From positions 1 through 64,000 of the IMG/VR virus record IMGVR_UViG_3300025508_002497: DNA of 64,000 nucleotides. One strand, given 5' to 3'. The notes under the pieces are model-generated. The model did not search any database. It was not told where the DNA came from and saw only the letters and a program-made list of their open reading frames with translations. Position 1 is the first letter of the stretch. Every line of letters starts with the position of its first letter. The position numbers were made by a program, and so were the translations under genes. Below are positions 750 through 60,128 of this stretch, piece by piece. Source of the DNA: a virus.

Positions 750-3700
750 TTAGTTTACTACCTCGATATAAAAGTCACCAGTTGCAGCAGATGATATCCA
801 AGAAGCGTCTGGACCACCAGTTCCGCCTGTCACTGTAACCGTAGGACCAATACCAGATCCAGTAGGACCAGTAGAACCAGCGGGACCATTGCCGCCAGTG
901 GGTCCAGTGGGTCCAGTAACACCACCACCACCAGCAGTGTTTTGGAATGTTCCATCAGCGAAGGTGATACCACCCCCCGATGCCATCGAGATACCTGCGA
1001 GGTAGTATAGTGCATTTCCAGATAACACTTCATAGGCATTGGGAATGTGAAATCGCGTGGTATAGAGTGTAGCGAGACTACTATCTTGAATCACTAGTCT
1101 ATTCGCACCACTCTGTCGTAATTTTATTTGTCCACCATCATAGGCATTCAGGATACCAGTATAATTCAAATCACCACCAGCAGTAATACCACCATCACTC
1201 GAAACACCAGCGACATGAACTATGGCGGTTGGATCTATACCTAGAGTAGATCCAGCGAGTGTCATACCTGCACCAGCAGTTATTGTAGATCCAGTAGGAG
1301 CAGTCGATTGGAAGGTTCCATCTGGGAAAGTGATTCCACCTGCGTCAAGAGAGATACCAGTTCCAGCGTGAACATATGTTGATGCTTTGACATATGTTCC
1401 TGCTTTAACAAAACCATTGTCTGCGTTAAATCCACTAGTAGTAATTGTTGCGTTGACTTGAGTGTTGCCGTTGGTCACTCTCCATGTGAAGTTACCATCA
1501 GTAAACCCATATTTAGAGTTTACATTACCTGAACTCTGAACCATAGCACCATAATTAATAAAATTACCACCAGCAGTAATTCCACCATCACTAGAGATAC
1601 CAGCAACATGAACTATGGCGGTTGGATCTATACCCAGAGTATGACCGACACCAGCAACGGTTGTTGATAATGTCATACCAGCACCAGCAGCAAGAGTAGT
1701 ACCACCACCACCACCTGCACCATCTTGACCAGCAGGTCCAGTTGGACCAGTAACACCATCAATACCAGAAATCTGCAACCAACCTAAAGTAGTTCCGTCA
1801 AAGACATTTGCGTAGTATAAACCAGTATCATTCTCATACCAGAAGTCTCCTGTTGCAGAACCCACAGGAGCAGTATTACCTGCGGTGTAACCAACGGAAG
1901 TACCATCAGAACCATCGGCACCAGTAGGACCAGTGGGACCAGTGGGACCAGTAACACCATCAGAACCATCGGCACCAGTAGGACCAGTGGGACCAGTTCC
2001 GCCACCAGCAGTATCTTGATAAGTTTCATCAGGGAAGGTGATACCTTTACCCAGCGTGATACCAGAACTTGCCGTCACTAGTCCAGCAAGAGTACTTGCA
2101 CTCCCTATCGAAATACTACCACCAGAGTAAAGTAAAGTAGGTGTTATTAAAGTGGAGAAGTTACCGCCGGGATTAAATCCGATTGTTCCCGCTCCCGCGC
2201 CTCCTCGATCCATTTCTATAAATGACGCCGCGCCGACTGCTCCGAAAACATCAGTTGAAATTCTGCCAGATGCGGTAATACCACCATCACTAGAAATACC
2301 AGCGACATGAACTACGGCGGTTGGATCTATACCTAGAGTAGATCCAGTTAGGACCATACCTGCACCAGCAGTTACACCAGATCCAGATGCGGCACTTGAT
2401 TGGAAGGTTCCATCAGGGAAGGTAATGCCAAGGGCATCCATTGAGATACCCTGTTTTGCATGGAAAAGTTCGTCTGCCTGAAGTTTTACATAAGCAATAA
2501 CACCACCAGACTCAACCTTCATTCTGGACTGTCCGCTAGTGTTCACATAAAAGTTATTGAGTCCACCATCTAGTATTATACCAGTAGTAGGATTACCTGC
2601 ACCACCAAGTATTTTAGTGGCATTCACGATACCGTCAAAAGTAGCACCACCATCACTAGAGATACCAGCGACATGAACTACGGCGGTTGGATCAATACCT
2701 AGAGTAGATCCAGCGAGTGTCATACCTGCACCAGCGACTATTTCAGATCCACTAGCGGCACTTGATTGGAAGGTTCCATCAGGGAAGGTAATGCCAAGGG
2801 CATCCATTGAGATACCTGCTCTTGCATGAATCAAGTTTGGTGTATCGTTTGCACGACCAGCACCGAGAACAAGAAGTGTTCCCGTAGAGGCATGAACTCT
2901 ACCCACACGACCGAGGTTCTGAATCAGATCAGTTGCACCAGAAGGTCTTGCGGCGGTAATCCCACCACCAACTCCAACATACACAGTATCGTTTGCGGTA
3001 AATCCTGATGTATCTGCGTCTCGAACAAGACCAGTGACAACCATGTAACCTTCGTCGTTCGTGGAGAATGCTCCAGTGACAATACCAGCAGCGGGCATCT
3101 TCGCTGAATCAGATGCGTCTGCCTTTCCGACTGTTACGCGATCGGATGCACCGACATTTCCTGTGATGTAAACTGGATCCAATGCTGCAAGTGCTTCGTC
3201 TGCTTTGATTGCCTTGAGAAGTTTACCTTCGATGTCTGCTTCTAGGTGAGGATGGTTTGTGTCCTGAGCAAAGAGAACCGAGTTGTCACCAGAGAATCCA
3301 GTACCATCGTGGTAGAGAACTTGATTAGTTGCGGCACCGTTGAAGTCAACCGACATGGTGTACCCAACACCTGCAACGATTGACGATAAGATTACTCCGT
3401 TACCAGCAGCAAGGGTAGCACCACCACCACCTGCACCATCTTGACCAGCAGGGCCAGTGGCCCCAGTAGTTCCGGGACGACCACTAACCTGCAACCATGC
3501 TAGTGTAGATCCATCATAGACATTTGCATAGTATAATCCAGTATCGTTTTCGTACCAGAAGTCTCCGGTATTAGAACCAGATGGTGCGGTATTTCCTGAT
3601 GTGAAACCAACGGAAGTACCATCAGAGCCATCGTCACCAGTAGGACCAGTAACACCATCAGAACCGGCACCAGTGGGACCAGTGGGACCAGTAACACCAT

Positions 3701-5258
3701 CAGAACCATCGGCACCAGTAGGACCAGTGTTACCCTTAGTTCCTTGATCACCAGTAGGACCAGTGTTACCAGTAGGACCATCGGCACCAGTAGGACCAGT
3801 AACACCATCAGAACCATCAGAACCATCGGCACCAGTGGGACCAGTGGGACCAGTAACACCATCAGAACCGGCAGAACCATCGGCACCAGTGGGACCAGTG
3901 GGACCAGTGGGTCCATCGGAACCATCGGCACCAGTGGGTCCAGTAACACCATCAGAACCATCGGCACCAGTAGGACCAGTAACACCATCAGAACCATCGG
4001 CACCAGTGGGTCCAGTAACACCATTAGAACCATCAGCACCAGTGGGCCCAGTCGGACCTTCTAGATCATTAGGTGTGAGGTTCTTGATTGTTACTTGACC
4101 ACCCATACCACTGTGGTATTGACATCTGTAGTATAGAGTATCAGGTGCATCATAAGGAACAGTAAATGTTATATCACCACTATCTGCTCCCGCATTTACA
4201 ACTCCCGTGGTGTATAGATTACCAGAATCGTAGGCACCACCATTGTCGGTGGTTTGTAGGTGGAATGGATGTCCACTTACACTTCCTGCAAGTGAGAAAA
4301 TATATTTCTGACCACGGAGAAGATAAATCGTATCTTGTTGAACAGTGTCGATAAAGTATTTGTTACCAGAGCCGGGATTACTTACAGTAACATCATAGGT
4401 TTTTGCTATAACTTGTTCACCCGTGGCACCAGTAGGACCAGTAACACCATCAGAACCATCGGCACCAGTAGGACCAGTAGGACCAGTAACACCATCAGAA
4501 CCATCGGCACCAGTAGGACCAGTGTTACCCTTAGTTCCTTGATCACCAGTAGGACCAGTGTTACCAGTAGGACCATCAGAACCATCGGCACCAGTAGGAC
4601 CAGTGTTACCCTTAGTTCCTTGATCACCAGTAGGACCAGTGTTACCAGTAGGACCATCGGCACCAGTAGGACCAGTAACACCATCAGAACCATCAGAACC
4701 ATCGGCACCAGTAGGACCAGTAACACCATCAGAACCATCGGCACCAGTAGGACCAGTAACACCATCAGAACCATCGGCACCAGTAGGACCAGTGTTACCC
4801 TTAGTTCCTTGATCACCAGTAGGACCAGTGTTACCAGTAGGACCAGCACCAGTGGCACCAGTTGCACCAACAGGACCAGTTGCACCACCACCCGCACCAG
4901 ATCCTAGTTCTTGCCAAGCGGTTCCATCGAACCCATAGAACTTAGAGTCACCCTCATTGAATACGATCGTACCATCTTGCTTGTTACTTGCATCCAAGAA
5001 AATCTCAAAAGCAGTTCCATTATATCGAACAATATCATTGTCCCCAACACCAGTAATCGTGCCGAAGTTTACATTCAGAGCGGACACATCTTCTAGGATG
5101 TATTTGTTATCTGTTGTTAGGCCTGGATTGAGAGTAGCATCTTCTTGGATTCCCTGAACCTTGAAGTTAACATCACCAGAATCAACCATGAAGAAGAAGT
5201 CACCACTGGTTGCGTCTCTATTCTGTTGTTTTAGAATGTCGATTAAGGTAATAGGCAT
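750..5258 (-). CDS. Large collagen-like tail fibre with embedded cupredoxin-like domain
   Basis: 1502 residues. A globular N-terminus (about 1-125) precedes a first Gly-X-Y block (about 126-278, mostly GPTG units with GDQGTKG variants). Next comes a compact domain (about 283-395), then a second Gly-X-Y block (about 400-540). The rest is fibre modules that repeat ITFPDGTFQ and VAGISSDGG phrases, two copies of a [16 protein letters not shown] module, and short GPTG stretches near 1083-1116 and the C-terminus. The compact domain has H333, C379, H382 and M385 in a C-x2-H-x2-M pattern, as in type-1 copper proteins (see findings). The start codon shares one base with the preceding fibre gene's stop. 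Probably a trimeric host-recognition fibre on the tail; copper binding is inference. Confidence 0.85.
2276..2426 (-). repeat. Fibre module shared with the 27880-31713 fibre (copy B)
   Basis: Direct repeat of the segment at 28676-28826, 26.4 kb away. Differences are mostly silent changes by eye, suggesting recent duplication or gene conversion between the two fibre genes. Confidence 0.75.
3620..4060 (-). repeat. Collagen-like Gly-X-Y coding repeat, block 2 of the large fibre
   Basis: Tandem 9-bp and 18-27-bp units whose minus-strand translation is GPTG, GADGSDG and VTGPTG. Units are imperfect copies, consistent with expansion and contraction. The skewed base composition makes long spurious open frames on the plus strand. 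Confidence 0.85.
4421..4880 (-). repeat. Collagen-like Gly-X-Y coding repeat, block 1 of the large fibre
   Basis: Near-identical 18-60-bp units encoding [16 protein letters not shown] and [10 protein letters not shown]. At least three copies of the longer GDQGTKG-containing unit occur, which makes the tract prone to length change by recombination. Confidence 0.85.
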
Positions 5259-6940
5259 TAGGAAACCACCACTTCTGTTGATCCAAGACTTGCATTATCT
5301 GATCTGTAGATGAAATATGTTTCGGAGAATCCAGCACTGTTAGTATGTGCAGTTGCACCACCATGAAGTTTACTGAATCCGCCCGCAAATCCACCCACCG
5401 TGAAACTAGCATCTCCATAACTTGATGGATATGCATAATATATGTATTCACCCGCACCTGCGTTAACCGAGAAACTATAACTTCTATTGTTATCTAAGTT
5501 TGAACTCAGTGATGACAAGTCTGGACCAGTTAACCCAGCGTTACTCGAAACACCATAGTAGTTGTTATTTCTGAAAGTTATACTATCGGTTGATGTCGCA
5601 AAACTTCCATCACTACCCGTCGCACCCAGAGTGAATGTTACACTACTATTCTTACTTGCAGGGAATGCTATATTATTAGATGCGACTGATGCAGATCCAC
5701 TCGACAGATCCACAGGGAATCCAGAGTCGGAAGATGCATTGGTTGTTACATCGGCATCAGCAACCGAAATACTGCCGGGAGTTTGGTATGTTGCAGACAA
5801 ACTTCTACCAGTGAGACTGTAGTTGCCAGTGCCAATCAGTGCAGTCGAACTACCAGAGATACTGAACGAGTTGATACCAAAGACAAACTCGGAGTCTAGG
5901 AAAATATCTTGGGCACGAATGTAATCAAAAGTAACTCCACCATCTTCGAGCAAGACTGGGAACTTTCTACCCCCACCACTCACGGTGTTGATATTATCAA
6001 AGTTGATACTATGATCGAGTGAAGTTCCTGTTGCGAATGTGGTATCAAAGAGTCCGTCTCCTGTAGCACCAGTTGCTCCTGTAACACCAGCGGCGCCAGT
6101 TGCTCCTGTAGCACCAGTTGCTCCTGTAACACCAGCGGCGCCAGTTGCTCCTGTAGCACCAGCGGCGCCAGTTGCTCCTGTAGCACCAGCGGCGCCAGTT
6201 GCTCCTGTAGCACCAGTTGCTCCAATAGAACCATCTTCACCAGTAGGACCAGTATTACCAATAGGACCATCTTCACCAGTAGGACCAGTCACACCAGTAG
6301 GACCAGCAACAGTAGAAGCGGCACCAGTAGGACCAGTGTTACCAGTAGGTCCAATAGAACCATCTTCACCAGTAGGACCAGTGTTACCAATAGGACCAGT
6401 CACACCAGTAGGACCATCTTCACCAGTAGGACCAGTCACACCAGTAGGACCAGCAACAGTAGAAGCGGCACCAGTAGGACCAGTGTTACCAGTAGGTCCA
6501 ATAGAACCATCTTCACCAGTAGGACCAGTTACACCAATAGGACCAGTCACACCAGTAGGACCAGTCACACCAGTAGGACCAGCAACAGTAGAAGCGGCAC
6601 CAGTAGGACCAGTTACACCAATAGGTCCAATAGAACCATCTTCACCAGTAGGACCAGTGTTACCAATAGGACCAGTCACACCAGTAGGACCAGTCACACC
6701 TGTGGCACCTGTGGCACCTGTTGAACCAGTGACACCCACATCACCAATAAGGCCTTGTGGACCTTGTGCGCCTACTCCCGATGCTTGTAGAATTTTCACA
6801 ATCGCAGGCAAGTTTTGTTGACCATTAGGGGAAACTCCCCCTCCAACAGAAATTGCATTGGTACTACTAGTGATGACATTGACGCGAGTCGCTGTCTCAT
6901 CAACGTTTGTACTACTTGTGATAACTCTAACTTGGGGCAT
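5258..6940 (-). CDS. Collagen-like tail fibre with C-terminal receptor-binding-type domain
   Basis: 560 residues. Residues 1-55 form a short N-terminal domain beginning [12 protein letters not shown]. Residues about 57-293 are Gly-X-Y repeats: GPTGVTG and GEDGSIG units interrupted by AASTVAG, then GATGAAG units. Residues about 300-560 form a beta-rich Ser/Gly/Asn/Tyr-rich head. The last 60 residues ([20 protein letters not shown]) resemble the end of the fibre protein at 31713-32801, suggesting a shared tip domain. Its stop shares one base with the next fibre gene. Likely function is host attachment. The Thr-rich Y positions of GPT triplets are the kind of site O-glycosylated in bacterial collagen-like proteins such as BclA. 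Confidence 0.8.
6061..6769 (-). repeat. Collagen-like Gly-X-Y coding repeat in the second fibre
   Basis: Tandem units encoding [17 protein letters not shown] and [10 protein letters not shown], then GATGAAG. A roughly 120-bp higher-order unit containing AASTVAG recurs about three times (centred near 6320, 6460 and 6590). Confidence 0.85.
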
Positions 6941-7417: not shown

Positions 7418-8662
7418 TTAGGATCGAGCCTTTTTCTTCTTCTTGTACGTTTTGGTCTTGATTTTAGGAGGATTAACCGACGCTTTCTTCTGTTGCTTCT
7501 CCCATTCGGCTCTTTGATTCCTGATTTCCTTGACCTTTTCTTCGTAAAAAGGAAGATTACTCTTGATTCTTTCCATTTGATCAGCAGGAGCCTTGTTTTC
7601 CTTGAGGAGTCTTAGAGTTGCTTCGTATCCCTCTTCAAATCTGAACATATAGAAAGCGGTAGCAGATAGTTCGTCCAACGCTCTCCAATGATAGCAGTCC
7701 TCTGATACGAAAAGAATATCTTGGGGAGGAACTTGTAAGTCTACCGCCATCTTCGCATAGATGTATGCTGTTCTTGGACGATTATTCATACGATACAATC
7801 GTGATAGTTCTACCAGAGGCTCAGCACGGATTGGTCTATATTCAAATGACTGTAAGAGATGCTCTGTAACTTCATTGAAAGGTTTGTTTTGAATACCAGC
7901 GATCATCGCTCTTCTGAATAGTGAATAGAAGCACTCCTCTTCCCATCCACCCATCTCTACCCTCTTACCATAAGCCTCAAACGACTTCTCCCACTGCTGC
8001 GAATCAAAGTAAGATTGAGCGAGGTAGAATTGATACCGTTCGTTTGTTGGTTCGTAGTTTGGATCATCTGGATTGGTAAGAGCAGACAACAGAACTTCTG
8101 CGTCTCTACTATACTTTTCTTGTGGTGTGATTCCTACGTTGCGATTGCCCTCGGTTCTGGCGATAACGAAATAGTTACCATTAATTTTATCAACTCTTGT
8201 TTGTTCTTTTGGTTTGGCTGGACAGTGGGCATACTCATGAAGCACTCCCTTATACTCCCAACCAATACCCAACTTGAAGATTTGATTCCTCCACCACATA
8301 AACTCAGGACGACCAAGACGAATTGAATACGAGTCCGCATCCATCTTTGAGGGATACCTAAAATCACCATCGATGTAGTCATCTGCATCAATCATCCATG
8401 CATATTCGGCATCGCTACTCTCTGCGTTTCTTAATGCTTCTGTTCTTGAAGGACCAAAACCTTTCCAGTCAGACTGATGAACAGTGCCAGGAACACCCAA
8501 CTCATCCATTGTCTTCTTGATTAGATCTTGTGTTCCATCTGTAGAACCAGTATCAGTAATATCATATCGATCGACATACTTTGACATCGATCGAAGACAC
8601 TCTTCGATAATATGAGTCTCATCTTTTACGATCATACACAGGGTCACTTTTGGTCGGCTCAT
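7418..8662 (-). CDS. Family 2 glycosyltransferase with TPR-like C-terminal half
   Basis: 414 residues. The N-terminal third is a GT-A domain: LCMIVKDE near residue 8, DTGSTDGTQ near 37 and the metal-binding DADD near 92. The middle and C-terminal part has paired helices typical of tetratricopeptide repeats (QQWEKSFEAYGKRVE and following), and the last 30 residues are strongly basic (KKKKKARS). A GT2 domain fused to TPRs is seen in enzymes that glycosylate proteins or peptides, such as SunS-type transferases. It lies immediately upstream of the fibre genes, so fibre glycosylation is a plausible but unproven role. Its start overlaps the epimerase stop as ATGA. Confidence 0.85.
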   Translation of the reverse strand: MSRPKVTLCMIVKDETHIIEECLRSMSKYVDRYDITDTGSTDGTQDLIKKTMDELGVPGTVHQSDWKGFGPSRTEALRNAESSDAEYAWMIDADDYIDGDFRYPSKMDADSYSIRLGRPEFMWWRNQIFKLGIGWEYKGVLHEYAHCPAKPKEQTRVDKINGNYFVIARTEGNRNVGITPQEKYSRDAEVLLSALTNPDDPNYEPTNERYQFYLAQSYFDSQQWEKSFEAYGKRVEMGGWEEECFYSLFRRAMIAGIQNKPFNEVTEHLLQSFEYRPIRAEPLVELSRLYRMNNRPRTAYIYAKMAVDLQVPPQDILFVSEDCYHWRALDELSATAFYMFRFEEGYEATLRLLKENKAPADQMERIKSNLPFYEEKVKEIRNQRAEWEKQQKKASVNPPKIKTKTYKKKKKARS

Positions 8663-9537
8663 GATAAATCCTTAATCCATTCTTGTAAATTCACTTGTGG
8701 TTCCCAACCCAACTCTTTGATCTTCTCGATCATTGCTTGGGTGGCAAACACTTCTCCACTTCTCTCATTTATGTAGGTGATATTTTCTGAGATCATATTT
8801 GCGATCTCTTTGATCGAGTAACTCACACCAGATCCAACATTATACACTCTGGACGGTGTGGTATTCTTCTCGGCAACTAGTATGTTCGCATCAACCACAT
8901 CAGAAACATTAACGAAGTCTCTTCTCTGTTTACCCTCACCAGTCACAGTGAGTGGCAATCCTTCTTTATTCTGCTTCATGAAGACGCCCAACACTGGAGC
9001 ATACTGTCCTGTTGTGTGCTGTCGATTTCCATAGACATTGAAGTAACGCAGGATCGTGGTGTGCAATCCGTACAGTTTAGAATACATCCTACACAGATCT
9101 TCACCAGCGTACTTAGATGATGCGTATGGATTTAGTGTTGGGCAGAGTTTAGAACCTTCACTCTGTACCATGTGATCACATTCGTACACTGCCGAGGTAG
9201 ATGAAAATACAAAGTTTTTCACATTGTTATTTCTTGCTGCCTCTAACAATGTAGCAGTTCCAATCACATTCGTTTCATAGCAATCAATGGGATTTAGTAT
9301 AGCATCCTGAATCCTAACATCAGCAGCCATATGAAACACATAGTCTATGTCTTTCATTATTACATTGACTAAATCAAAATCACAAATATCACCAACCCAA
9401 TTCTTGGCTGACTCATTCCAATACGCAATAGTACTACCATTTATGTCTAGGCAAGTAACAGCATGACCCTGATCAATCAGACGATCTACTAAGTTACTTC
9501 CTATGAAACCTGCTCCACCTGTTACTAACACTCTCAC
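8659..9537 (-). CDS. NAD-dependent sugar epimerase/dehydratase (extended SDR)
   Basis: 292 residues, starting at a GTG that overlaps the upstream stop as GTGA. The Rossmann motif TGGAGFIG lies at residues 7-14, the SST serine/threonine at 112-114 and the catalytic YxxxK at Y138/K142, which is complete for an extended short-chain dehydrogenase/reductase. Sequence style is that of UDP-glucose/UDP-GlcNAc 4-epimerases, which interconvert nucleotide sugars in the cytoplasm. Substrate cannot be read from sequence. In this locus it could act on the nucleotide sugar made by the 12331-15816 cassette, as HldD does in ADP-heptose synthesis, or on UDP-hexoses. Confidence 0.9.
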   Translation of the reverse strand: MRVLVTGGAGFIGSNLVDRLIDQGHAVTCLDINGSTIAYWNESAKNWVGDICDFDLVNVIMKDIDYVFHMAADVRIQDAILNPIDCYETNVIGTATLLEAARNNNVKNFVFSSTSAVYECDHMVQSEGSKLCPTLNPYASSKYAGEDLCRMYSKLYGLHTTILRYFNVYGNRQHTTGQYAPVLGVFMKQNKEGLPLTVTGEGKQRRDFVNVSDVVDANILVAEKNTTPSRVYNVGSGVSYSIKEIANMISENITYINERSGEVFATQAMIEKIKELGWEPQVNLQEWIKDLS

Positions 9538-11409: not shown

Positions 11410-12334
11410 ATTCCCCCATATCGACTGTGGGATCGTCGCAATCTATAACTTGAGTAGAGTTGGTTATCTTCCAACTAAAGGGAAAATCTGGACTTCGCCA
11501 ATCAAGTTTCATGTGTTTCCAATGTACATGATAATCACCGAGAAGATTAATGTCTACAACAGAAAAAACTTCGGTCCATTTATTCCATTTAATATTATTT
11601 GCTGATAGATAAGAACAACATAGGACTTGTTCAGGAGATGTGTTAAAATTACAAACACTTAGGCCAAAAATAACTGCCTGTGACTGGTCAACATACATAA
11701 AATTTAGTCGTGAACTAGGAAAAAATGTATACTCTTTAATCATCCAAGTATATGTTTTCATCAGGTTTTCTGTTTTACCACAGAATACATGATCCCCAAT
11801 ATGAAACAAGTATTCAGATATGGGTTTATAAAATATGTTTCCAGTCGGACACGACCAGTCACCTAATTCAAGATGAGCATCAATCAACGGATCAAAATTT
11901 CCAAATCGCTCATCACTTCTTTGCTTAACAGTTATCTCTCCAGTTGCATTTTGCAGACCTAAAAAGGTAGAAATAATCGCATACCAAAAGGTAGTATCCT
12001 CGGGCATAGCCTGATTTGTAGGTGCATATGGTTTTGACTCATCTATCTTTATTGATGTGGGTAACTCCATATCAGTCCACCAATCATGAACCTCGAACTC
12101 GGTGTCTGTTGGATCTATCTTATATTTCATATCAGGAAGGGGACTACGAACAAAAACAACATGGTCGTGTTGCTCAAGCATTTCCAAGTAACCTTTGATT
12201 CGTTCGTCGATTTTATCATCTACCCAATGAGAGATAATGATCTGGTCAAACTTATTGATATGGTCGTCCTCGAAAATGCTACCGAGAGACGTATGACATA
12301 GTGGTCCTTGAATCAGAAGTGTTTTTGTTTTCAT
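11399..12334 (-). CDS. WavE-like putative glycosyltransferase (second copy)
   Basis: 311 residues. It begins LLIQGPL, has the segment IISHWVDD and the TVKQRSDERF motif near residue 137, followed by a region rich in Trp and Tyr. These fit the WavE lipopolysaccharide synthesis family, which I recall as having an I-x-GP start, a strand ending in S-x-W and a K-x-R-x-D motif. Acceptor and donor are unknown. It directly follows the transketolase pair and precedes the sulfotransferase, so it may use the sugar made upstream. Confidence 0.6.
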   Translation of the reverse strand: MKTKTLLIQGPLCHTSLGSIFEDDHINKFDQIIISHWVDDKIDERIKGYLEMLEQHDHVVFVRSPLPDMKYKIDPTDTEFEVHDWWTDMELPTSIKIDESKPYAPTNQAMPEDTTFWYAIISTFLGLQNATGEITVKQRSDERFGNFDPLIDAHLELGDWSCPTGNIFYKPISEYLFHIGDHVFCGKTENLMKTYTWMIKEYTFFPSSRLNFMYVDQSQAVIFGLSVCNFNTSPEQVLCCSYLSANNIKWNKWTEVFSVVDINLLGDYHVHWKHMKLDWRSPDFPFSWKITNSTQVIDCDDPTVDMGEYGV

Positions 12335-12810
12335 CGTGAAAGGTTCATATAGTATGGTTTAGGTGAGTAGATAAATTCTTTGAATTCTTCGTCTAAGTTG
12401 TCAACGGTAGGCCATGTCTTTTCGATATTTTCAAAACCTGATAGATGAATCTTATCGTCATGCGCCCAGTGTGACCAACCCAACCAGTCATAGTCTTTGT
12501 CTCTGCCGGCGCCGACTAGTTTGACTGGAATCTCGTCTCGCTCTAGGTAATTACGAATGAACTCGAATGGTCTGTATATTGTGAATGGTGTCATAGAATA
12601 AGCGACAGGGATTTTTCCCTGCAAAGCCATACCCACCGACGCACCCACCATTAGTTGTTCTGCGGCACCAACATTGATAAACCTATCGGGATAGGTTAGT
12701 CGGAGTTGATCAAAGTGTTTCCACCCCAGATCACCAACGACCAAAACGATTCTATCGTCTAGAGTCATTTCATCATATAGCAATTGTGTAAATCTTTTAC
12801 GAACGCTCAC
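12331..12810 (-). CDS. Transketolase-like pyrimidine-binding subunit (split, minimal)
   Basis: 159 residues. Starts at GTG with AAGGAG seven bases upstream and overlaps the partner subunit by 14 bases. The NVGAAEQ motif at 47-52 holds the glutamate (E51) that protonates the thiamine pyrophosphate pyrimidine ring. The segment PVKLVGAG near 95-102 and the SHWAHDD near 113-119 also fit transketolase. Only the pyrimidine domain is present: the third domain found in ordinary C-terminal subunits (about 300 residues) is absent. With the gene just upstream it should form a heteromeric thiamine-dependent enzyme moving two-carbon units between sugar phosphates. Confidence 0.85.
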   Translation of the reverse strand: MSVRKRFTQLLYDEMTLDDRIVLVVGDLGWKHFDQLRLTYPDRFINVGAAEQLMVGASVGMALQGKIPVAYSMTPFTIYRPFEFIRNYLERDEIPVKLVGAGRDKDYDWLGWSHWAHDDKIHLSGFENIEKTWPTVDNLDEEFKEFIYSPKPYYMNLSR

Positions 12811-13438
12811 CGTCTATCTCCTTCACTCCAAGTTCATACTGTTCTTTATTGAGTTTCATGTAATGGGCATCGATGCCTTTGAGAAAGGTAAACATTGCAA
12901 CCTTCGTTCGGTGGAACTTGATTGAAGGCAAAAATGCTTTGCATCTTCTCTCCAGATAATCGACATCAACAGGATCATAGCAAGCGTATCCATTCGCATT
13001 TACATGAACCTCGATGTTCTTGATGTTCTTTTCTTCGATGAGTCTAAGTGCCTCCCAAACCGAACCCTCTGCACATTCACCATCAGTGACAGTCACATAG
13101 AAGTTCTTCTCCGGACTTGCAAGTGCCATTCCAACCGCAACAGTGATCCCCTGACCCAAACTACCAGTCGAGCAGAAGATTCCGTTTTCTGGATCTAGGT
13201 TCGGATGACCTGCGTGCTTTTCGACAAGCATGTCTGCATCCACACCGAGATACTTTTCTAGGATTGCGTACAGTGCGTAACCTGCATGACCGTTTGATAG
13301 AATGAACACATCATCATCTCTTTTACGAGAGTAGATATCATCGATAATATCAATGCATGAGAAGCAACTACCAACATGCTCTTCTTCGTGATCGTACAGA
13401 AGTTTCAATAGTCTCTTGTGTAGGTTCTTGTCAATCAT
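12797..13438 (-). CDS. Transketolase-like thiamine diphosphate-binding subunit (split, minimal)
   Basis: 213 residues. Recognisable transketolase features in order: ILSNGHAGYALYA with H51, GHPN with H78, TGSLGQG at 91-97, and the thiamine diphosphate/Mg motif DGECAEG at 119-125 followed by a VNANG segment near 146-150. The usual GDG is TDG here, so the first glycine is lost while the metal-binding Asp remains. Ordinary N-terminal subunits are 270-330 residues. Stop and start overlap the pyrimidine subunit gene, arguing for coupled translation and a stoichiometric complex. Substrate is unknown. Confidence 0.85.
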   Translation of the reverse strand: MIDKNLHKRLLKLLYDHEEEHVGSCFSCIDIIDDIYSRKRDDDVFILSNGHAGYALYAILEKYLGVDADMLVEKHAGHPNLDPENGIFCSTGSLGQGITVAVGMALASPEKNFYVTVTDGECAEGSVWEALRLIEEKNIKNIEVHVNANGYACYDPVDVDYLERRCKAFLPSIKFHRTKVAMFTFLKGIDAHYMKLNKEQYELGVKEIDGERS

Positions 13439-14595
13439 CCGTAAATCGTCTTTCTCATTCTAGTCATGTGTCGTCCGCCATCGAACGAGTTGTTTTTCAG
13501 TTGGATGATAATCTTCTCAAGCATCTCACTGGAAACATACTTCTCTGGAATGCTGAAGAAGTTAGCACAATTGTGTCTTCGTGCCATTTCTGCCATGTAC
13601 TCGTCCAATAGCAACGCACCTCGAACACCATCGGAGTGGTTAGCGGCTAGATTGACACCTTGTCCTGTTCGACAGAATCCCATCGCAAAATCGCACACGT
13701 TTGTTTGAATCGCATTTGTTGCCTGTGAAACAAAGTCGTTGTAGTCCGAGTCTTTCGATACCACAGGACCAAAGTCAATATATGGGATATTGTGCTTATC
13801 CAAGATACGCTTGGTCTTTTCCTTTGTCTTGAATCCCGAGTGATCACCACAGAGTGCGATGGGTTTTTCACCAAACTCGTAACATACATTATCAACGAAA
13901 AACTCTAGTTCTTGTGGGGTTCCAAGTACATGCATCTTTTCCACTTGCTTGATCGTTACAGTCATACCGTCTCGGATCATGTAGTTGTACATCGGACAGA
14001 TGTAAAACTCGTCTTTTGTTCTTTCATTCTTGTTGACCATTTCTTCGGCATAATCGACAAACATGCGACCGCTCTTGTAGTAGTAAAGACCCACTGCTGC
14101 ATTCGCACTGATGACCGACTTTTCTGCTGTCCTCGTTGCAATACCATCCTTGTCCAGTTCGACGTAACTGTGAGCAGGACTGTTTGCCTTGAAGGTAAGA
14201 AGGAACCCATCACTGTCCTCGGGAATACTATCGGGATCGAATGTATTCTGGAAGTACACATCTGGGGTGTAGATGATAAGAGGCATATCGTTGTTGATCT
14301 GCTCTTTTGCAATCAGACATGTGGATACAGATCCATCGGTATCGTGATCTACCACTACGATTTGGATATCGTCTCCAAACTTTTCTCGCAGGATCTCATC
14401 GATTGCATGGTTGTTGATATGATCAAGACGAACAGCAAAAATCAGATTACAATCTGTAGTGTCAACTGATTCGAGTGACCAGTCAATAATTTGCTTTGTC
14501 TTTGCCATGATGAGAGGTTTAGGCATAGAGTAACCTTCATCAGCGAATCTTTGTGCCTTACCCGCGACTGGGATGAGCATGTTGTACTTTTTCAT
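13435..14595 (-). CDS. Fused sugar nucleotidyltransferase - RpiB-type sugar-phosphate isomerase
   Basis: 386 residues. Residues 1-240 are a GT-A nucleotidyltransferase: IPVAGKAQRF at 8-17, PKP at 25-27 and the metal-binding TPD at 110-112. It resembles capsule or lipopolysaccharide enzymes that join NTP and a sugar 1-phosphate. Residues 245-386 are an RpiB/LacAB isomerase: DH at 251-252, the catalytic-cysteine loop CRTGQG at 308-313 (usually CGTGxG), AANH at 317-320, GVRGAL at 323-328 and RHNCAN at 340-345. RpiB interconverts ribulose and ribose 5-phosphate or similar pairs. A good ribosome site (CAGGAG) precedes the ATG. The two domains probably catalyse successive steps in one pathway. Confidence 0.88.
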   Translation of the reverse strand: MKKYNMLIPVAGKAQRFADEGYSMPKPLIMAKTKQIIDWSLESVDTTDCNLIFAVRLDHINNHAIDEILREKFGDDIQIVVVDHDTDGSVSTCLIAKEQINNDMPLIIYTPDVYFQNTFDPDSIPEDSDGFLLTFKANSPAHSYVELDKDGIATRTAEKSVISANAAVGLYYYKSGRMFVDYAEEMVNKNERTKDEFYICPMYNYMIRDGMTVTIKQVEKMHVLGTPQELEFFVDNVCYEFGEKPIALCGDHSGFKTKEKTKRILDKHNIPYIDFGPVVSKDSDYNDFVSQATNAIQTNVCDFAMGFCRTGQGVNLAANHSDGVRGALLLDEYMAEMARRHNCANFFSIPEKYVSSEMLEKIIIQLKNNSFDGGRHMTRMRKTIYG

Positions 14596-15280
14596 GATGT
14601 CTCCTGATTAATTCACTAGTTGTTTTTTCTGATGTAAAAAGTGCGGCCTTCTGAAGTGAAGTATTATGATATTGTTTTAAGAAACAAACAGCAAAAATAT
14701 CACCTGCTCCATTGACACTTAAGTAATCTACGGGTTTTGTGTGACCTTCATATTTAATACTTCCTTCAACGACTACCTCACACCCATATTTATCATGGAA
14801 AACTAAAGGTGTCTTTGTCTTGATGTCTGCATAGAGATGTTTTCTTTCTCTTGAGTCAAACACTATTTCTGATGCGTCGATAACATCCTTAAACTGTTCA
14901 CGCGGTCTTGTCGTACAGAAGTCCAAACTCATTTTAGGTTGTATGTTTAGTAACCTTTCGATGTTTTCCATATCATCGACATACATCACATGAACCCAAT
15001 CAGAATTTTCTACGCCCCGTAACGACCTCTTGAGACAAGGAACTTCATCCCATGTAATAGAAGATCTCACACCCTCTTCCTTTTCCTCAAGAATGATCGC
15101 TCTCTTCTCTCCATCGGGCAAAAGATAGATTTCTAGATCTTTAATTTTGAGGTTATTTACATTATACATCCCACCATATTGCTGACCTAAAAACCTCGCG
15201 GCATTCGTTTCGTTCTTTACGAAACGTGATATTTGATAAATTGTATCCAAGTATCTTTTTCCTATTAGAGTGAGTTTCAT
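14558..15280 (-). CDS. PfkB-family sugar kinase (short, divergent)
   Basis: 240 residues from the ATG at 15280, which shares one base with the upstream stop; a longer frame to 15328 would need TTG. Two PfkB features are visible: GG-x-x-N at 36-40 for sugar binding, and GAGD at 191-194 with catalytic base D194 in the anion-hole loop. Usual length is about 300, and the C-terminal ATP-lid region is shortened, so activity is not certain. PfkB enzymes phosphorylate sugars or sugar phosphates; the HldE kinase domain of heptose synthesis is a member. Sits between the HAD phosphatase and the nucleotidyltransferase-isomerase. Confidence 0.75.
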   Translation of the reverse strand: MKLTLIGKRYLDTIYQISRFVKNETNAARFLGQQYGGMYNVNNLKIKDLEIYLLPDGEKRAIILEEKEEGVRSSITWDEVPCLKRSLRGVENSDWVHVMYVDDMENIERLLNIQPKMSLDFCTTRPREQFKDVIDASEIVFDSRERKHLYADIKTKTPLVFHDKYGCEVVVEGSIKYEGHTKPVDYLSVNGAGDIFAVCFLKQYHNTSLQKAALFTSEKTTSELIRRHHEKVQHAHPSRG

Positions 15281-15816
15281 CAGAAGACCTCTTGCTTGTC
15301 TAGATTTTCGATGTCCTCCATTGTACAATCATCGATAAGTCTTTTGTCTAGAAGAATATAAAAAAGTTCTGCTACCACATTGTTTCCACCTACAGACTGC
15401 ATAAAGTTACCCTTCGAGTTACAGTGTTGGATTAGTTCCCTACTAGAGTCCGAAGGACAGTATGGGTGACTAACTGCTTCCATAATTGTTAGATCAAACA
15501 AGTCATCTCCAACATAAACCATGTTCTCTGGTTTCGTTTGAAATTGTTCACATAGTTCTGGAATGAACTCTGCCTTGTCTTTTCCTCTTGCAGAATAGAA
15601 AGGAATGTTTCTTTTTTCTGCCATTGCTTTGTTTACGTTCTCGTCACCAGACACAAAACAAACCGAGACTCCTGCTCCTCGCATTCTCTTAATTGCAGTA
15701 AAGTCTTTATCGCAATACGTCTTTGCAAATGGAACACCATCTATGCCATAGTATTTTCTGCCATCAGTCATTACACCATCGATGTCTAGAATAACTAGTT
15801 CTACTTTTTCTTTCAC
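15280..15816 (-). CDS. HAD-family sugar-phosphate phosphatase, KdsC-like
   Basis: 178 residues, GTG start with GGAG eight bases upstream. HAD motifs are complete: DIDGVMTDG with nucleophile D11 and D13, the VSG serine near 56, K81, and GDDLFD at 103-108. The TDG after the first motif and the small size without a cap domain match KdsC, the 3-deoxy-octulosonate 8-phosphate phosphatase, a C0 HAD enzyme active as a tetramer. KdsC relatives act on other sugar phosphates and acyl-sugar phosphates. In this cassette it could play the role GmhB plays in heptose synthesis, removing one phosphate from a bisphosphate. Confidence 0.88.
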   Translation of the reverse strand: MKEKVELVILDIDGVMTDGRKYYGIDGVPFAKTYCDKDFTAIKRMRGAGVSVCFVSGDENVNKAMAEKRNIPFYSARGKDKAEFIPELCEQFQTKPENMVYVGDDLFDLTIMEAVSHPYCPSDSSRELIQHCNSKGNFMQSVGGNNVVAELFYILLDKRLIDDCTMEDIENLDKQEVF

Positions 15817-16545: not shown

Positions 16546-17346
16546 TCACCATTCTGCTATATCGACGAATCTAGATTTCTCATAAAGTCCAGTTTGTTTG
16601 AAGTGCCACTTGTATAATTTGTGATTGTCTATACATGCCCATCTCGGGTATGTCATCAATTTAGTTTGATTTGTATTTTCCTCAAACATTTGATTAGAAA
16701 ATTCGTCGGATGTATCACTATCAAACCAACCACTTTCAGTAACACTTTTTACATATTCACTAGTTGGTTGGTAATATTCAAACATACGATCGTATATACT
16801 TCCAACTGTTCTCATGTTCTCAACACCAGAATAAAACCAGTGATCAGCATAACCATGATTTAATTGATTCCAGTATGCACTGTATAAATATTCAGGGTTG
16901 TATTCCTCTGAAAAATTAAAGTTAGTTGCAAAGTAAGGACCAGCGGGTATGTGTTCTTTTCCTCTTTGTCCTAAATCAAATCTTGCAACCACTACTCTAT
17001 CATAATCATCTGGAACTAAATTGATAGAAGCCTTTCTCGAAAAATGAAAACTAAGACCTCTGAATAAAGTATTCCCTACAGGAGAGGTTCCGAAAAAAGA
17101 AGAATCAAACAACTTCTGTTCTTCGATGAACTCATTTTGTTTTTCTATAATAATTTGAACAGGGTTATATAACTCCTTAATAATCTCAGAGTTATCTACA
17201 TCCCAAGTATGAATAAAAACATCTGTATTGTTATCAATAATTTTTTCATGTATATACTCACTAGCGTTAAATGCGACTTCACTCCCCCCCGAACGTGAAA
17301 GGGCCTTCCCGTCAAAATAACCATGTAAACACAGTGCTGTTTTCAT
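16546..17346 (-). CDS. Putative glycosyltransferase-like protein
   Basis: 266 residues. It starts TALCLHGYFDG, has VFIHTWDVD near 44-52 and VVVARFDLGQ near 120. The pattern of an initial HGYF or HG strand, an IHTWD turn and a later R-x-D strand is typical of a widespread, mostly uncharacterised group of phage and polysaccharide-locus transferases. The R-x-D may be the nucleotide or metal site. Overlaps the upstream aminotransferase stop by 4 bases and leaves one base before the next gene. Reaction is unknown. Confidence 0.6.
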   Translation of the reverse strand: MKTALCLHGYFDGKALSRSGGSEVAFNASEYIHEKIIDNNTDVFIHTWDVDNSEIIKELYNPVQIIIEKQNEFIEEQKLFDSSFFGTSPVGNTLFRGLSFHFSRKASINLVPDDYDRVVVARFDLGQRGKEHIPAGPYFATNFNFSEEYNPEYLYSAYWNQLNHGYADHWFYSGVENMRTVGSIYDRMFEYYQPTSEYVKSVTESGWFDSDTSDEFSNQMFEENTNQTKLMTYPRWACIDNHKLYKWHFKQTGLYEKSRFVDIAEW

Positions 17347-17945
17347 TTATTTTTAAATACCGTAAACTCTCGCAAGTCTCGGTATCCTCCTTCTTCAATA
17401 AGATCTGGTACGTTCTCTGGGTAGTTCTGCATCAGTGCAAGACCATGCGATGCCTGTTGTGGAGTCATGTACATGTTCCACCCGAGCATCGTAATATCGT
17501 CTTCCTTATATGGTACTGCGTGTCGGCCTTCGTATCGTGCAACACGAAGCCATTCAACAATATCTTTGTTGTCGGTTAGAACCATACCACCCTTACCAAT
17601 TGCAAGGTGCTTCTTGATATGAAAAGACAGACACATGTTTGTACCTTCAATATACATGTTAGAAGTAAATCGTTTAGCAGAATCGTAAATTGGATATGGT
17701 TTGAGTTGGTAGATACCCTCCCACTCATCATCGGTAAACTTTACATCACCACCCGAATGAATGATAGACTGAGGTACTGAGAGATAAGTCTTTGCGGGTA
17801 TCTCAACCTCATCAACATCAAAATACTTACAACAAAGAAACAGAGCATCGGTACATGATGTAACCGCAACGGCATACGGCGCACCTGTGTAATCAGCAAC
17901 TGTCTCTTCAAACATCTCTACAATTTTAAAAGGGTTATGTTTCAT
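17343..17945 (-). CDS. Compact DegT/DnrJ-type sugar aminotransferase
   Basis: 200 residues from the ATG at 17945, which overlaps the upstream acetyltransferase stop as ATGA; the longer frame would need TTG. Family marks: SCTDALFL at 30-37 for phosphate binding, EIPAKTY at 48-54, the PLP-ring Asp D88 in YDSA, and SFHIKKHLAIGKGG at 107-120 with the PLP lysine at about K112. DegT enzymes convert keto-sugars to amino sugars on nucleotide carriers. They are normally about 370 residues, so the C-terminal domain is missing here. Paired with an acetyltransferase, it suggests an N-acetylated amino sugar, if still active. Confidence 0.8.
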   Translation of the reverse strand: MKHNPFKIVEMFEETVADYTGAPYAVAVTSCTDALFLCCKYFDVDEVEIPAKTYLSVPQSIIHSGGDVKFTDDEWEGIYQLKPYPIYDSAKRFTSNMYIEGTNMCLSFHIKKHLAIGKGGMVLTDNKDIVEWLRVARYEGRHAVPYKEDDITMLGWNMYMTPQQASHGLALMQNYPENVPDLIEEGGYRDLREFTVFKNK

Positions 17946-18325
17946 CTTTCCATTAACCAATACTTAATTTTAAATCCGCAACTTTCAAATAGTTTTCTAC
18001 TTGCTTCGTTTTCAATTTTCACTTTAGCAAAAGAATCTGGGAATCTTTCCATCAATTCTGTTATTAGAACTTTTCCTACACCTTTACCCTGATAATCAGG
18101 ATGTACACACACGCGAATGTCATTATCTAAAGACCCCGCAAACCCAGCAGGTTCATTATTGTACAAGGCGACAATGTATTTGGAACGATGCTTCCGCATG
18201 TATTTATCCTGTTGATTTTTGGTTATGTTCACGACTTCTATGAATCCATCTTGGACTCTCGGATCACTACGAAGTAATCGTATGAAATCATAATACTTAG
18301 GATCATTGTTAACTACTTTCACCAT
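17942..18325 (-). CDS. GNAT-family N-acetyltransferase
   Basis: 127 residues. The acetyl-CoA loop QGKGVG lies at 79-84 inside VCVHPDYQGKGVGKVL, and the C-terminal N-x-A-S-R-K-L-F-E-S-C-G-F segment is the usual last GNAT helix and strand. The substrate is unknown. It directly precedes the sugar aminotransferase, and such pairs commonly make N-acetylated amino sugars, so that is the likeliest role. It overlaps the preceding gene by 7 bases. Confidence 0.88.
   Translation of the reverse strand: MVKVVNNDPKYYDFIRLLRSDPRVQDGFIEVVNITKNQQDKYMRKHRSKYIVALYNNEPAGFAGSLDNDIRVCVHPDYQGKGVGKVLITELMERFPDSFAKVKIENEASRKLFESCGFKIKYWLMER

Positions 18326-27879: not shown

Positions 27880-27883
<4 letters not shown>
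27419..27883 (-). CDS. Small structural protein at the end of the first fibre module
   Basis: 154 residues starting [20 protein letters not shown]. Beta-rich, Thr/Ser/Asn-rich sequence without collagen repeats, ending in a strand-like TQIKLNWA. It overlaps the collagen-like fibre stop as ATGA and is the last gene before the replication promoter. By position it may be a fibre tip, cap or fibre-assembly protein. No family recognised. Confidence 0.6.
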
Positions 27884-31712
<3,829 letters not shown>

Positions 31713-31713
<1 letters not shown>

Positions 31714-56780: not shown

Positions 56781-59700
56781 CTAGATAATAAAGGACATTC
56801 TGTTTAAGACTTGTTGAATAATACTCAGACTACTATAGTCTACACTACTATTTATACCAGTCAAGATTATTCTTATTTTTTCGGTATGTTGAATCCGATC
56901 AGCGTTTGTAATACCGCCAAAGATATATTCAAGTATCTTCTTGACACTAGCAGTATCACCCTCAACTGTATCTATTACATTACTCAGATCGATTGTTTCA
57001 CAGTACACGGGGTTATCCCCTCTATTTTCAAAGTTACCAACGGCATTAAAGGTAGTATTGTTTAGATTAGTAAATCTAGTTATAGCAATAGTATCAGCCA
57101 TCTTCTTTACAAAATCATCATAACCTGTTGCTTGAACATTATTGTTTCTGAAACTAAATCTGTTTAATGCAGGGTTTGTATCTGGAATCACTGCACCTGA
57201 TATACTATCAGGAAGACTTCTAATCGTTCTGTTTGTTTGATTAGGTAATACAAACGAATCAAGAACAGTTGATGCAGTTACACAGTCATCTAGATTAATA
57301 TAATCAATCGATGGACAAGAAGATAAATCTAAACTAGAAAGAGAACTATTTCTTTGTAGTTGAACTTCAAGTAAGAAAGGCATATTGCTAAAGTCTAAAG
57401 TGTTGAAGTTACATCTCTGTGCATAGAATGTTTCCAGTTGTGGATATGATCCTGAGATGCTTGATAGATTTTCATTATATCCTACTCTTAGATCCGCAAG
57501 ATAAATACTATCATCTGCAAAAGTTAGGCTGCTCAGATTATTGTATGTGACATCTACACTTGTGATATTAGGGTTATTAGATAAGTTTAAAGTAGTAATC
57601 TCATTATCGCTCAGTGCAAGTCTTTCTAGTTTTGGACACCCAATAAGACTCAGTTCTTCTGTTAATCCACTTCTTCTAAAATCTAAAGCAGTTAGTTCTG
57701 GGAAGATTGCGACCTCGAAGTCAGTTTGTAACTCTTCATAAGAAGAACCTTGGAGTCCTAGTTGTCTTAGTTGATTCATTCCTATAAAGTTAACATACTT
57801 AATTTTTCTATTTTCTTCAGGAAGTCCAAATCCACCTGTCCAATAGAAACTAGGATAGTTCAAAATCAATCTAGTGATTGTATCACGGGGTTGATTTGTT
57901 TCTAACGTAACACCCTTAATCTCTCGTAATGTTTCTGAAGAGAATGGAATAGTAAATGGTTCTTGTTTATCTACTCTGAAGAAAAGTTGTTGTGAATCTT
58001 GAATAACAATATCATCTAAGAACGTTCCAGTTCCGTCTTCCAGAGCAGATACGATAAACGTTGTAAATGGTTCATTGGAATAGTTATACTTTAAATCACC
58101 GATGGGTCTACTATCAGTGTATATTTCTTCATTTTCAAACGGGCCACCTATATTGGGTGGATCAATGTAAGTAACCATGATATTCTTTGAGAAGTTTGTT
58201 TCATCATAATACGGAATAGCATCTACTGTGGGATCACCACAAGTAGATCCTGCCCATATATCTCGTTCATTTTGTCCGTCTTGTCTTGCAAAAACTCTCA
58301 AGGCTGTTTCAGTTGGTTCTTCATCAACAACACACTTACACGAAGCGGTTCCGAGATTTTCTTCTGGAGTTACTGGTTCTAGGAACGCTACCATACCACA
58401 ATCTCTATTCGCACATGAAGTTCCAGGCCCGTGGAAAAATCCTTGCTGTCCTTGACACTCTAGATAAGTTTTACCATCTAAACATGTATTTGCATCGGTG
58501 CAACAAGAACCTCGTTCTGTTGGTCTGGTTAATCCTACATCATCACAAGTCTGACAACCAGAATGCCATTCACCGTGAATAAGTTCACAGTCTGGTTTTG
58601 TAAAGTTGTCGAGACAGGCGGTTTGTCTGCCTGTATTATACCTGTAGTTAGTTAGACTTCTATTACTACCTGTGCCGTCAACATAAGTACCATCTTTTGT
58701 TGTACTGATCTCACATCTTCCTAGAGTGATATCTGAATCAAGATTTACTTCATTTCCACAACTAGGATCTGAACATTTTCTTCCGGGTCTCCACGTTACT
58801 TTTAACCTATTATTAATATCATTCTCATTCCAGTTGACGTTATTTTGTGCCTCTAATACTTGTAGATAATAATCACGCCTTCTTTGTAGGGCATTAAAAC
58901 ACTGAAACTCTGTTTTCATGTCACCACACTCTAGGTCTGGATTTCTTCCATCAGAAAGTACAGAGTCTTCGAGGCGACAAGAACCTGCTAAATATCTATC
59001 ACCGATTCCACTTGGTTTAACGGTATCAAATAGTAATCCAGAAGCGGGAGCAGATCGTATATCATCACAATAGATTCCAGGCCACCATTTTCCTTCTAAC
59101 TGTGAACACTCTTCTGATGTTTTTGATTCGCAAAGATAATGTCCATTTGAGGTTGGATATTGACAACCACCCCACATAGTTGCCTTACTTATATCACCAT
59201 CAGTTGATGATATAATACCACCGGGACATTCTCCTGCGGTATTAACTAAAGTAACCCATACAGGTTCTTTTGAATATGTTGGACCGGGAGTTCCGTTCCA
59301 TTTACCTGAAGTTGGTTCACCGCCTACATTTGAATCATAATAGTACTTTTTGGGAGTTGGTCTTGAACATACTAACTGTCCACCACCGAAGTTACCATTT
59401 GAATCTCTGTTCTGTTGTTGATCAGGGATTTCTCTTCGTCTTTCCTCTATAAATGTTCCTGTCCTACAATCATAATCGATAGAACAATCTGCATTGATGA
59501 TCCACTCACCATTATTACGAGTAACACAATCTGCTTCTGTCATTTGACCAATACAAACTCCAGCCCTACAACAAGCACTGGTTTCTGTAATATTATTTAA
59601 GTTACCGCAAGGATTGGAGGCACACTGAAGTTCTGTTCCTGTTTGAATACCATCGTGAAATACTCCACCAAGTGAGGCACAATAATCAGAGTTACAAGTG

Positions 59701-60119
59701 TCGAAGCAAGATCCATCACCGATGCAGCAGGCATATTTTTGATCTTTGATTGAAGATAGTTTTTCTCTTTCTACTTCGGTACAAACTCTACCCTCAAAAA
59801 ACTCAGCATCAAAATTTTCTTGAGTTATACAATCTGCCTCTAAAATATTGTTAGTGCAACTACTACACGTTTTACATGCTCCGTGTAAGTCTGAGTTTAA
59901 TGGTGCTGGTGGTTTGATTGCATCACCGCCAGGACATCCTTGAACTTCACATGTAGAATCTTTACCTCTAAAAATACCCAAGTCTCTTTTACAATCAAGG
60001 TACTTTACATTGTCTTCACAAACAAATGTATTATTAGTTTCATCTACGGTACAACAAGCGCCAACATCGTTGCCGTTTGGTTGAATTGCTTTTGATCTTG
60101 TTCTAAACTCTATAGCCAT
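56781..60119 (-). CDS. Large cysteine-rich virion protein with leucine-rich repeats
   Basis: 1112 residues. Residues 1 to about 600 contain repeated cysteine modules of the form CC-x-G-x-C near ...-GG-x-F/W...-C..C (for example ACCIGDGSCFD then LGGVFHDG). About 620-780 is a beta-rich linker. About 790-960 are leucine-rich repeats (LALSDNEITTLNLSNNPNIT), each near 20-24 residues. A C-terminal domain of 150 residues (ending LNRMSFII) follows. There is no signal peptide. By location it belongs near the baseplate-neck genes and may be an external adhesive appendage; family unknown. Confidence 0.75.
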   Translation of the reverse strand: MAIEFRTRSKAIQPNGNDVGACCTVDETNNTFVCEDNVKYLDCKRDLGIFRGKDSTCEVQGCPGGDAIKPPAPLNSDLHGACKTCSSCTNNILEADCITQENFDAEFFEGRVCTEVEREKLSSIKDQKYACCIGDGSCFDTCNSDYCASLGGVFHDGIQTGTELQCASNPCGNLNNITETSACCRAGVCIGQMTEADCVTRNNGEWIINADCSIDYDCRTGTFIEERRREIPDQQQNRDSNGNFGGGQLVCSRPTPKKYYYDSNVGGEPTSGKWNGTPGPTYSKEPVWVTLVNTAGECPGGIISSTDGDISKATMWGGCQYPTSNGHYLCESKTSEECSQLEGKWWPGIYCDDIRSAPASGLLFDTVKPSGIGDRYLAGSCRLEDSVLSDGRNPDLECGDMKTEFQCFNALQRRRDYYLQVLEAQNNVNWNENDINNRLKVTWRPGRKCSDPSCGNEVNLDSDITLGRCEISTTKDGTYVDGTGSNRSLTNYRYNTGRQTACLDNFTKPDCELIHGEWHSGCQTCDDVGLTRPTERGSCCTDANTCLDGKTYLECQGQQGFFHGPGTSCANRDCGMVAFLEPVTPEENLGTASCKCVVDEEPTETALRVFARQDGQNERDIWAGSTCGDPTVDAIPYYDETNFSKNIMVTYIDPPNIGGPFENEEIYTDSRPIGDLKYNYSNEPFTTFIVSALEDGTGTFLDDIVIQDSQQLFFRVDKQEPFTIPFSSETLREIKGVTLETNQPRDTITRLILNYPSFYWTGGFGLPEENRKIKYVNFIGMNQLRQLGLQGSSYEELQTDFEVAIFPELTALDFRRSGLTEELSLIGCPKLERLALSDNEITTLNLSNNPNITSVDVTYNNLSSLTFADDSIYLADLRVGYNENLSSISGSYPQLETFYAQRCNFNTLDFSNMPFLLEVQLQRNSSLSSLDLSSCPSIDYINLDDCVTASTVLDSFVLPNQTNRTIRSLPDSISGAVIPDTNPALNRFSFRNNNVQATGYDDFVKKMADTIAITRFTNLNNTTFNAVGNFENRGDNPVYCETIDLSNVIDTVEGDTASVKKILEYIFGGITNADRIQHTEKIRIILTGINSSVDYSSLSIIQQVLNRMSFII
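56849..56856 (-). promoter_or_regulatory. T4-type late promoter before the neck-gene block
   Basis: TATAAATA on the minus strand within the last codons of the LRR protein gene, about 80 bases upstream of the 56768 start. It could drive the cysteine-cluster gene and, if the 56166 hairpin is passed, gp13 onward. Confidence 0.6.
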
Positions 60120-60128
60120 AATCTACCT

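Follow-up and report, generated by a model that had tools for sequence, protein, structure and literature searches.

The 64,000-nucleotide window analysed here (positions 1 to 64,000 of IMGVR_UViG_3300025508_002497, an IMG/VR virus fragment of 97,163 bases) carries five consecutive genes on the minus strand, each overlapping the next, that probably form a nucleotide-sugar cassette. In the reading we favour, to which we give a probability of about 60%, the cassette was taken from bacterial capsule or O-antigen clusters, follows a logic like that of the heptose pathways, and probably serves the modification of a host surface glycan. The genes specify a KdsC-subfamily HAD phosphatase (KDSC), a compact PfkB/ribokinase-fold kinase (KIN), a sugar-phosphate nucleotidyltransferase fused to an RpiB isomerase (NT.RPI, with domains NT and RPI), and the two subunits of a minimal split transketolase (TKN and TKC). 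Five overlapping genes with these domains had been described in an initial annotation of the same DNA, and both the arrangement and the domains were confirmed. The favoured reading draws on the linkage of the core genes across viruses, their conserved motifs, bacterial polysaccharide loci with the same partners, the fold of the kinase, and a neighbourhood rich in glycan genes.

IMG/VR was scanned with the fusion, each transketolase subunit and the phosphatase as seeds, the loci were annotated with custom profiles, and the phosphatases were clustered at 90% identity, giving 83 KDSC clusters with enough flanking sequence. KIN and NT accompany the phosphatase in 81 of the 83, RpiB in 70, and a small protein resembling glycerophosphodiester phosphodiesterase (GDPD) in 77; the transketolase pair is found in 22 and is absent from about three quarters. 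A scan seeded on KDSC alone agrees, with the core together in 66 of 68 loci. The arrangement lies far beyond chance, as about 80 dereplicated viral loci repeat the gene order, and catalytic motifs are maintained across 72–155 distinct relatives of the cassette proteins. A small cupin gene is present beside RpiB/NT in 44 of 59 clusters that lack the transketolase but in only 2 of 22 that have it (p 9e-8; 22 of 30 against 1 of 6 after clustering at 65%, p 0.016), and it usually occupies the site after RpiB where the transketolase stands in this phage. Of the 22 clusters with transketolase, 9 have no RpiB, compared with 3 of the 59 others (p 2e-4). These counts therefore point to a constant core of phosphatase, kinase and nucleotidyltransferase, to which RpiB, cupin or transketolase may be added interchangeably. 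The five genes are not one indivisible unit.

The proposal that the genes form one pathway can thus be retained in part. KDSC, KIN, NT and RpiB travel together and keep their active-site residues, which makes it credible that they act in one pathway leading to an activated sugar, but the transketolase, which had been taken as the defining step, is optional and also has a second context without the cassette. Relatives scattered among unrelated partners, which had been expected to count against one pathway, were found for the transketolase pair and not for the other cassette genes. The genes could instead be a mosaic, each sugar gene acquired on its own and no pathway shared. The variability of the glycan island and its many unrelated neighbours would fit this, as would the other context of the transketolase pair, but such a mosaic is contradicted for the core trio by its near-constant association in viruses and in two bacterial lineages, and is highly improbable.

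The first three genes are also present in cultured phages. In Synechococcus phages Bellamy (genes 204-206) and SynMITS9220M01 the phosphatase, kinase and fusion follow one another as they do here, without transketolase; their annotations read phosphatase, hypothetical protein and phosphatase. The assertion that no phage had been described with this set is thus not supported; the functions had gone unrecognised. The Bellamy fusion (L002:8998-10155) is the second of those labelled 'phosphatase' in GenBank. In cells the fusion is rare, occurring in 1 of 136 genomes of the SAR116 order, 1 of 93 of the Holophagaceae class and 1 of 345 of the Bacteroidota phylum, the last on a contig that may be viral. 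The SAR116 fusion (L107) lies beside rmlBACD, together with cupin, GDPD, phosphatase and kinase genes, the Holophagaceae locus has the order GDPD-KDSC-KIN-NT.RPI-cupin, and a Bacteroidota capsule locus has GDPD-HAD-NT-cupin, without RpiB, beside capsule export genes. These bacterial loci support a bacterial surface-polysaccharide origin of the cassette. They also bear on the idea that the target of the activated sugar is phage DNA or virion proteins instead of a host surface glycan. T4-like phages glucosylate their DNA with nucleotide sugars, and many glycosyltransferase-like genes lie close to the cassette; set against this, the same cassette occurs in bacterial surface-polysaccharide clusters, and we regard decoration of DNA or virions as very unlikely. 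One further candidate carrier, the Crocinitomicaceae-assigned contig L106 (PACT01000001.1), was discounted because viral L039 is apparently the same contig; both have 15,998 bases and the same cassette layout, probably a binning error. L104, a short contig from a metagenome-assembled genome, may likewise be viral.

KDSC matches the KdsC subfamily model TIGR01670 at 1e-19 with 71 bits (curated cut-off 107), and the KdsC equivalog with 68 bits (cut-off 208); the GmhB model is matched at E 1e-3 only. Its nearest structures include KdsC and KDN-9-phosphatase (1e-24, PDB profile search), and the motifs DxDG and GDDxxD are present in 127 of 127 distinct viral relatives. With every curated KdsC cut-off missed, membership in the 3-deoxy-D-manno-octulosonate (KDO) pathway was rejected on this enzyme, no profile search having been made for the partners KdsA and KdsB. 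The kinase falls under the Pfam gathering score (E 0.12), while its profile finds PfkB structures in the PDB at 2.5e-9. An AlphaFold (AF2) model of KIN, with a predicted local distance difference test (pLDDT) score of 94, matched ketohexokinase and ribokinase structures at 1e-12 in Foldseek, and the catalytic motif GAGD is found in 115 of 121 relatives. By its modelled ribokinase fold and GAGD motif, KIN is assigned to the PfkB/ribokinase family. Its start lies at 15280, a correction to the gene list, in which a longer open reading frame begins at an upstream TTG.

In the fusion, the NT domain matches TIGR01208 (3e-9) and, by profile, structure 4evw (3e-27). The RPI domain matches PF02502 (5e-31) and, at 105 bits, passes the RpiB/LacAB subfamily cut-off of 88, but its 94 bits against TIGR01120, the ribose-5-phosphate-specific RpiB equivalog, do not reach the cut-off of 139, and the substrate is therefore not fixed by the family match. 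Asp251, His252, Cys308, His341, Arg375 and Arg379 are invariant in 23 aligned fusions, and the RPI motifs (catalytic Cys, DH, HNxxN and the GGRHxxR phosphate site) are found in 99–103 of 103 relatives. Members of the NT family also occur in other cyanophage proteins: in Synechococcus phage S-SKS1 (L007:5998-7425) one is fused to a RibB-type 3,4-dihydroxy-2-butanone 4-phosphate (DHBP) synthase (Pfam 5e-65), another ribulose 5-phosphate enzyme, and in S-CAM9 (L004:6347-7732) a HAD_2 phosphatase is N-terminal to the NT family, with a GDPD-like gene downstream.

From these assignments a route can be proposed. RpiB would convert a ketose phosphate, such as ribulose 5-phosphate, to an aldose phosphate, KIN would place a phosphate on the anomeric carbon, KDSC would remove the terminal phosphate from the resulting sugar bisphosphate, and NT would join the sugar 1-phosphate to a nucleotide to give the activated sugar. 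Where present, the transketolase would reshape the precursor pool or the carbon skeleton, replacing the cupin and sometimes RpiB, and adjoining glycosyltransferases would transfer the sugar to a host surface glycan during infection. The simplest RpiB product is a pentose phosphate, in which case the final product would be a nucleoside diphosphate (NDP)-pentose. Both the product and the order of reactions (isomerisation, 1-phosphorylation, dephosphorylation, nucleotidylation) are proposed by analogy with heptose pathways, in which isomerase, kinase, phosphatase and nucleotidyltransferase act one after another. A bolder version is that this is a new pathway that activates pentose phosphate as an NDP-sugar (e.g., NDP-ribofuranose), is used by marine bacteria and was copied by phages, with the minimal transketolase making a variant sugar; as a whole this is tentative and rather unlikely.

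Several points weigh against the nucleotide-sugar reading. The substrates, intermediates and product are predicted from the genes. KIN could act on a free sugar, the order phosphatase then kinase is possible, and the GDPD-like and cupin members have no role in the scheme. Elsewhere, NT-family proteins are associated with or fused to HAD, DHBP synthase or glycosyltransferase partners, so that the substrate cannot be read from the family, and the association tests on cassette members were corrected for relatedness only roughly, by clustering.

The initial annotation had proposed a heptose route, in which sedoheptulose 7-phosphate made by the transketolase is converted by RpiB to an aldoheptose 7-phosphate, from which the kinase, phosphatase and nucleotidyltransferase produce an NDP-heptose. 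The roles match one to one, and the SIS-family isomerase domain of GmhA (PF13580) and the HldE-type cytidylyltransferase-like domain (PF01467) were not found in the 97 kb record, itself a fragment, so these functions are not duplicated there. On the other hand, RpiB and the transketolase are both dispensable, and RpiB is present in 56 of 59 clusters without transketolase and missing from 9 of the 22 with it. The known substrates of RpiB/LacAB enzymes are sugar phosphates of four to six carbons, not of heptoses, and sedoheptulose 7-phosphate is already made by host cells. Such a route is accordingly quite unlikely. ADP/GDP-heptose biosynthesis shares four chemistries with the cassette (sugar-phosphate isomerase, kinase, which is of PfkB type in HldE too, HAD phosphatase and nucleotidyltransferase), but the cassette has RpiB and not SIS-type GmhA, a KdsC-subfamily phosphatase and not GmhB, an RmlA-like nucleotidyltransferase and not the cytidylyltransferase-like domain of HldE, and no conserved HldD, and its isomerase is fused to the nucleotidyltransferase. 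Membership in the ADP/GDP-heptose pathway was rejected on GmhA, the HldE domain, GmhB and HldD.

The transketolase pair is unusually small. TKN matches PF00456 (3e-12) and the split transketolase structure 6yak (4e-18), and TKC matches PF02779 (7e-10) and 6yaj (9e-21), covering residues 35-193 of 341. The best match for the pair, the split transketolase of Carboxydothermus hydrogenoformans (6yaj/6yak), also has two subunits with the thiamine diphosphate (ThDP) site split between the N and Pyr parts, but the phage proteins are much shorter (TKN 213 against 309 aa, TKC 159 against 341 aa). TKC consists of the Pyr domain alone and lacks the whole transketolase C-terminal domain; both parts of a transketolase are thus present as subunits, as had been noted, but the C-part is incomplete and the N-part reduced. 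The pair has the expected ThDP-site residues (SxGH, DGExxEG, NxN and the activating Glu), and SxGH, DGExxEG and NxNG are found in 72 of 72 TKN relatives. Bacterial O-antigen transketolase pairs are likewise two-subunit enzymes, but their C-subunits are full-length. With the kinase (about 220–240 aa) and the GDPD-like barrel (about 150 aa), the 213+159 aa transketolase is one of several shortened forms of known enzymes.

Outside the cassette, about 50 viral TKC loci lie among genes for short-chain dehydrogenases/reductases (SDRs) and methyltransferases, with an SDR directly downstream in 41, RmlB/GMD-like in those inspected. This second arrangement suggests branched-sugar synthesis. Viral contigs L164-L218 show the order SDR, FkbM-like methyltransferase, TKN, TKC, SDR. 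It could be argued that the cassette transketolase likewise adds a two-carbon ketol unit to a keto-sugar (compare YerE-like enzymes, with acetyl) that the other genes make or trim. Some bacterial transketolase pairs adjoin dehydratases, including CDP-glucose dehydratase genes, and for miharamycin and amipurimycin biosynthesis it has been suggested, though not tested in vitro, that split-gene transketolases attach hydroxyacetyl groups to keto-sugars (PMC12247030). In the cassette context, however, the transketolase has no SDR as an immediate neighbour, nearby SDRs are not orthologous between cassettes, and the cassette transketolases form approximately one clade of their own (22 of 22 plus one outsider), so a branched-sugar route for the cassette is unlikely. 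For the transketolase itself, precursor supply or branching may apply, and both are live options.

No description of the cassette or its gene combination, of an NT-RpiB fusion, or of a transketolase without the C-terminal domain was found in the papers searched, which left subscription literature outside coverage; for the combination, one general phage review matched. Pelagimyophages are known to carry lipopolysaccharide genes (PMC7029224), and cyanophages are known to have glycan islands in which epimerases, cupins and nucleotidyltransferases occur together with PfkB kinases, including the sugar clusters of jumbo cyanophages (Iyer et al. 2021, PMC7824862), which are among the nearest parallels to the present cassette; the main text of that paper does not contain the terms RpiB, KdsC or transketolase, and the cassette is not resolved there. 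The phosphoribosyl pyrophosphate (PRPP)-dependent ribofuranose systems (gPRT with a HAD phosphatase, and the three-component undP-Ribf system) also bring a pentose-phosphate-derived sugar into surface glycans and use a HAD phosphatase, but, unlike the cassette, they employ PRPP or a lipid-linked donor and have no nucleotidyltransferase, RpiB or PfkB (PMC11127046, PMC12096443). No gPRT or UbiA-type phosphoribosyl synthase beside a HAD phosphatase was recognised by eye in the window, and no profile search was made for one. Because PRPP or a lipid-linked donor supplies the ribofuranose in the routes characterised so far, an NDP-pentose route would, if true, fill a gap, and it would connect the pentose-phosphate flux redirected by cyanophages to the reshaping of the host surface. 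Marine viruses commonly carry the cassette, but it has gone unannotated, the whole fusion corresponding to PHROG 3980 of 'unknown function' (1e-78), and as cultured Synechococcus phages carry it, its function is directly testable.

The initial annotation had located the five genes correctly but overlooked the GDPD-like member and the cupin found at the transketolase position. The GDPD-like protein has no match in Pfam or NCBIfam, but carries an invariant HR...ExD...GH pattern, and the best PDB fold match of its AF2 model (pLDDT 94.5) is a glycerophosphodiester phosphodiesterase (probability 1.00 but E 5e-3). It is also found in related NT loci without the kinase. The downstream SDR had been suggested as an HldD-type pathway epimerase. 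It scores 157 bits with both GalE and RmlB and 123 bits with HldD (heptose_epim cut-off 275), all below cut-off, and its identity to the SDRs of other transketolase cassettes, which are not orthologous to it, does not exceed 34%. As it is more GalE/RmlB-like and not conserved at other cassettes, that role is not supported.

Table 1. Coordinates of the cassette genes, their domains and two further genes in the window.
Feature	Position	Strand	Basis
KDSC: KdsC-subfamily HAD phosphatase, 178 aa	15280-15816	-	TIGR01670, PDB relatives, motifs
KIN: compact PfkB/ribokinase-fold kinase, 240 aa	14558-15280	-	PDB profile, model, GAGD
NT.RPI: nucleotidyltransferase-RpiB fusion, 386 aa	13435-14595	-	profiles
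NT: RmlA-like sugar-phosphate nucleotidyltransferase domain, fusion residues 1-236	13888-14595	-	TIGR01208, 4evw
RPI: RpiB/LacAB isomerase domain, fusion residues 246-382	13450-13860	-	PF02502
TKN: ThDP-binding subunit, minimal split transketolase, 213 aa	12797-13438	-	PF00456, 6yak
TKC: Pyr-domain subunit, minimal split transketolase, 159 aa	12331-12810	-	PF02779, 6yaj
GDPD-like protein, 152 aa	9727-10185	-	residues, model fold; 2.1 kb downstream of cassette
SDR (GalE/RmlB-like) nucleotide-sugar enzyme, predicted	8659-9537	-	GalE, RmlB and HldD model scores below cut-off

The cassette lies in a glycan island of small, mostly overlapping minus-strand genes (about 7.4-24 kb of the window), with glycosyltransferase-, sulfotransferase- and epimerase-like neighbours. 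Its capsid sequence, at 54% to both Synechococcus phage S-CREM1 and Pelagibacter phage HTVC008M, and its terminase sequence, at 58% to Methylophilales phage Melnitz, place the phage among marine T4-like phages; by these two proteins, cyanophages, pelagiphage HTVC008M and Methylophilales phages are almost equally distant from it, and no host is singled out. The same island encodes a strongly shortened DegT/DnrJ aminotransferase of only 205 aa, recognised by two separated profile stretches (17343-17960). Elsewhere in the window, long collagen-like proteins with GPT/GxT repeats (750-6940 and 27880-31713) are probably fibres, and three very large proteins, rich in cysteine and with recurring CC-containing motifs, are encoded near structural genes (56781-63422, and L102:711-6545).

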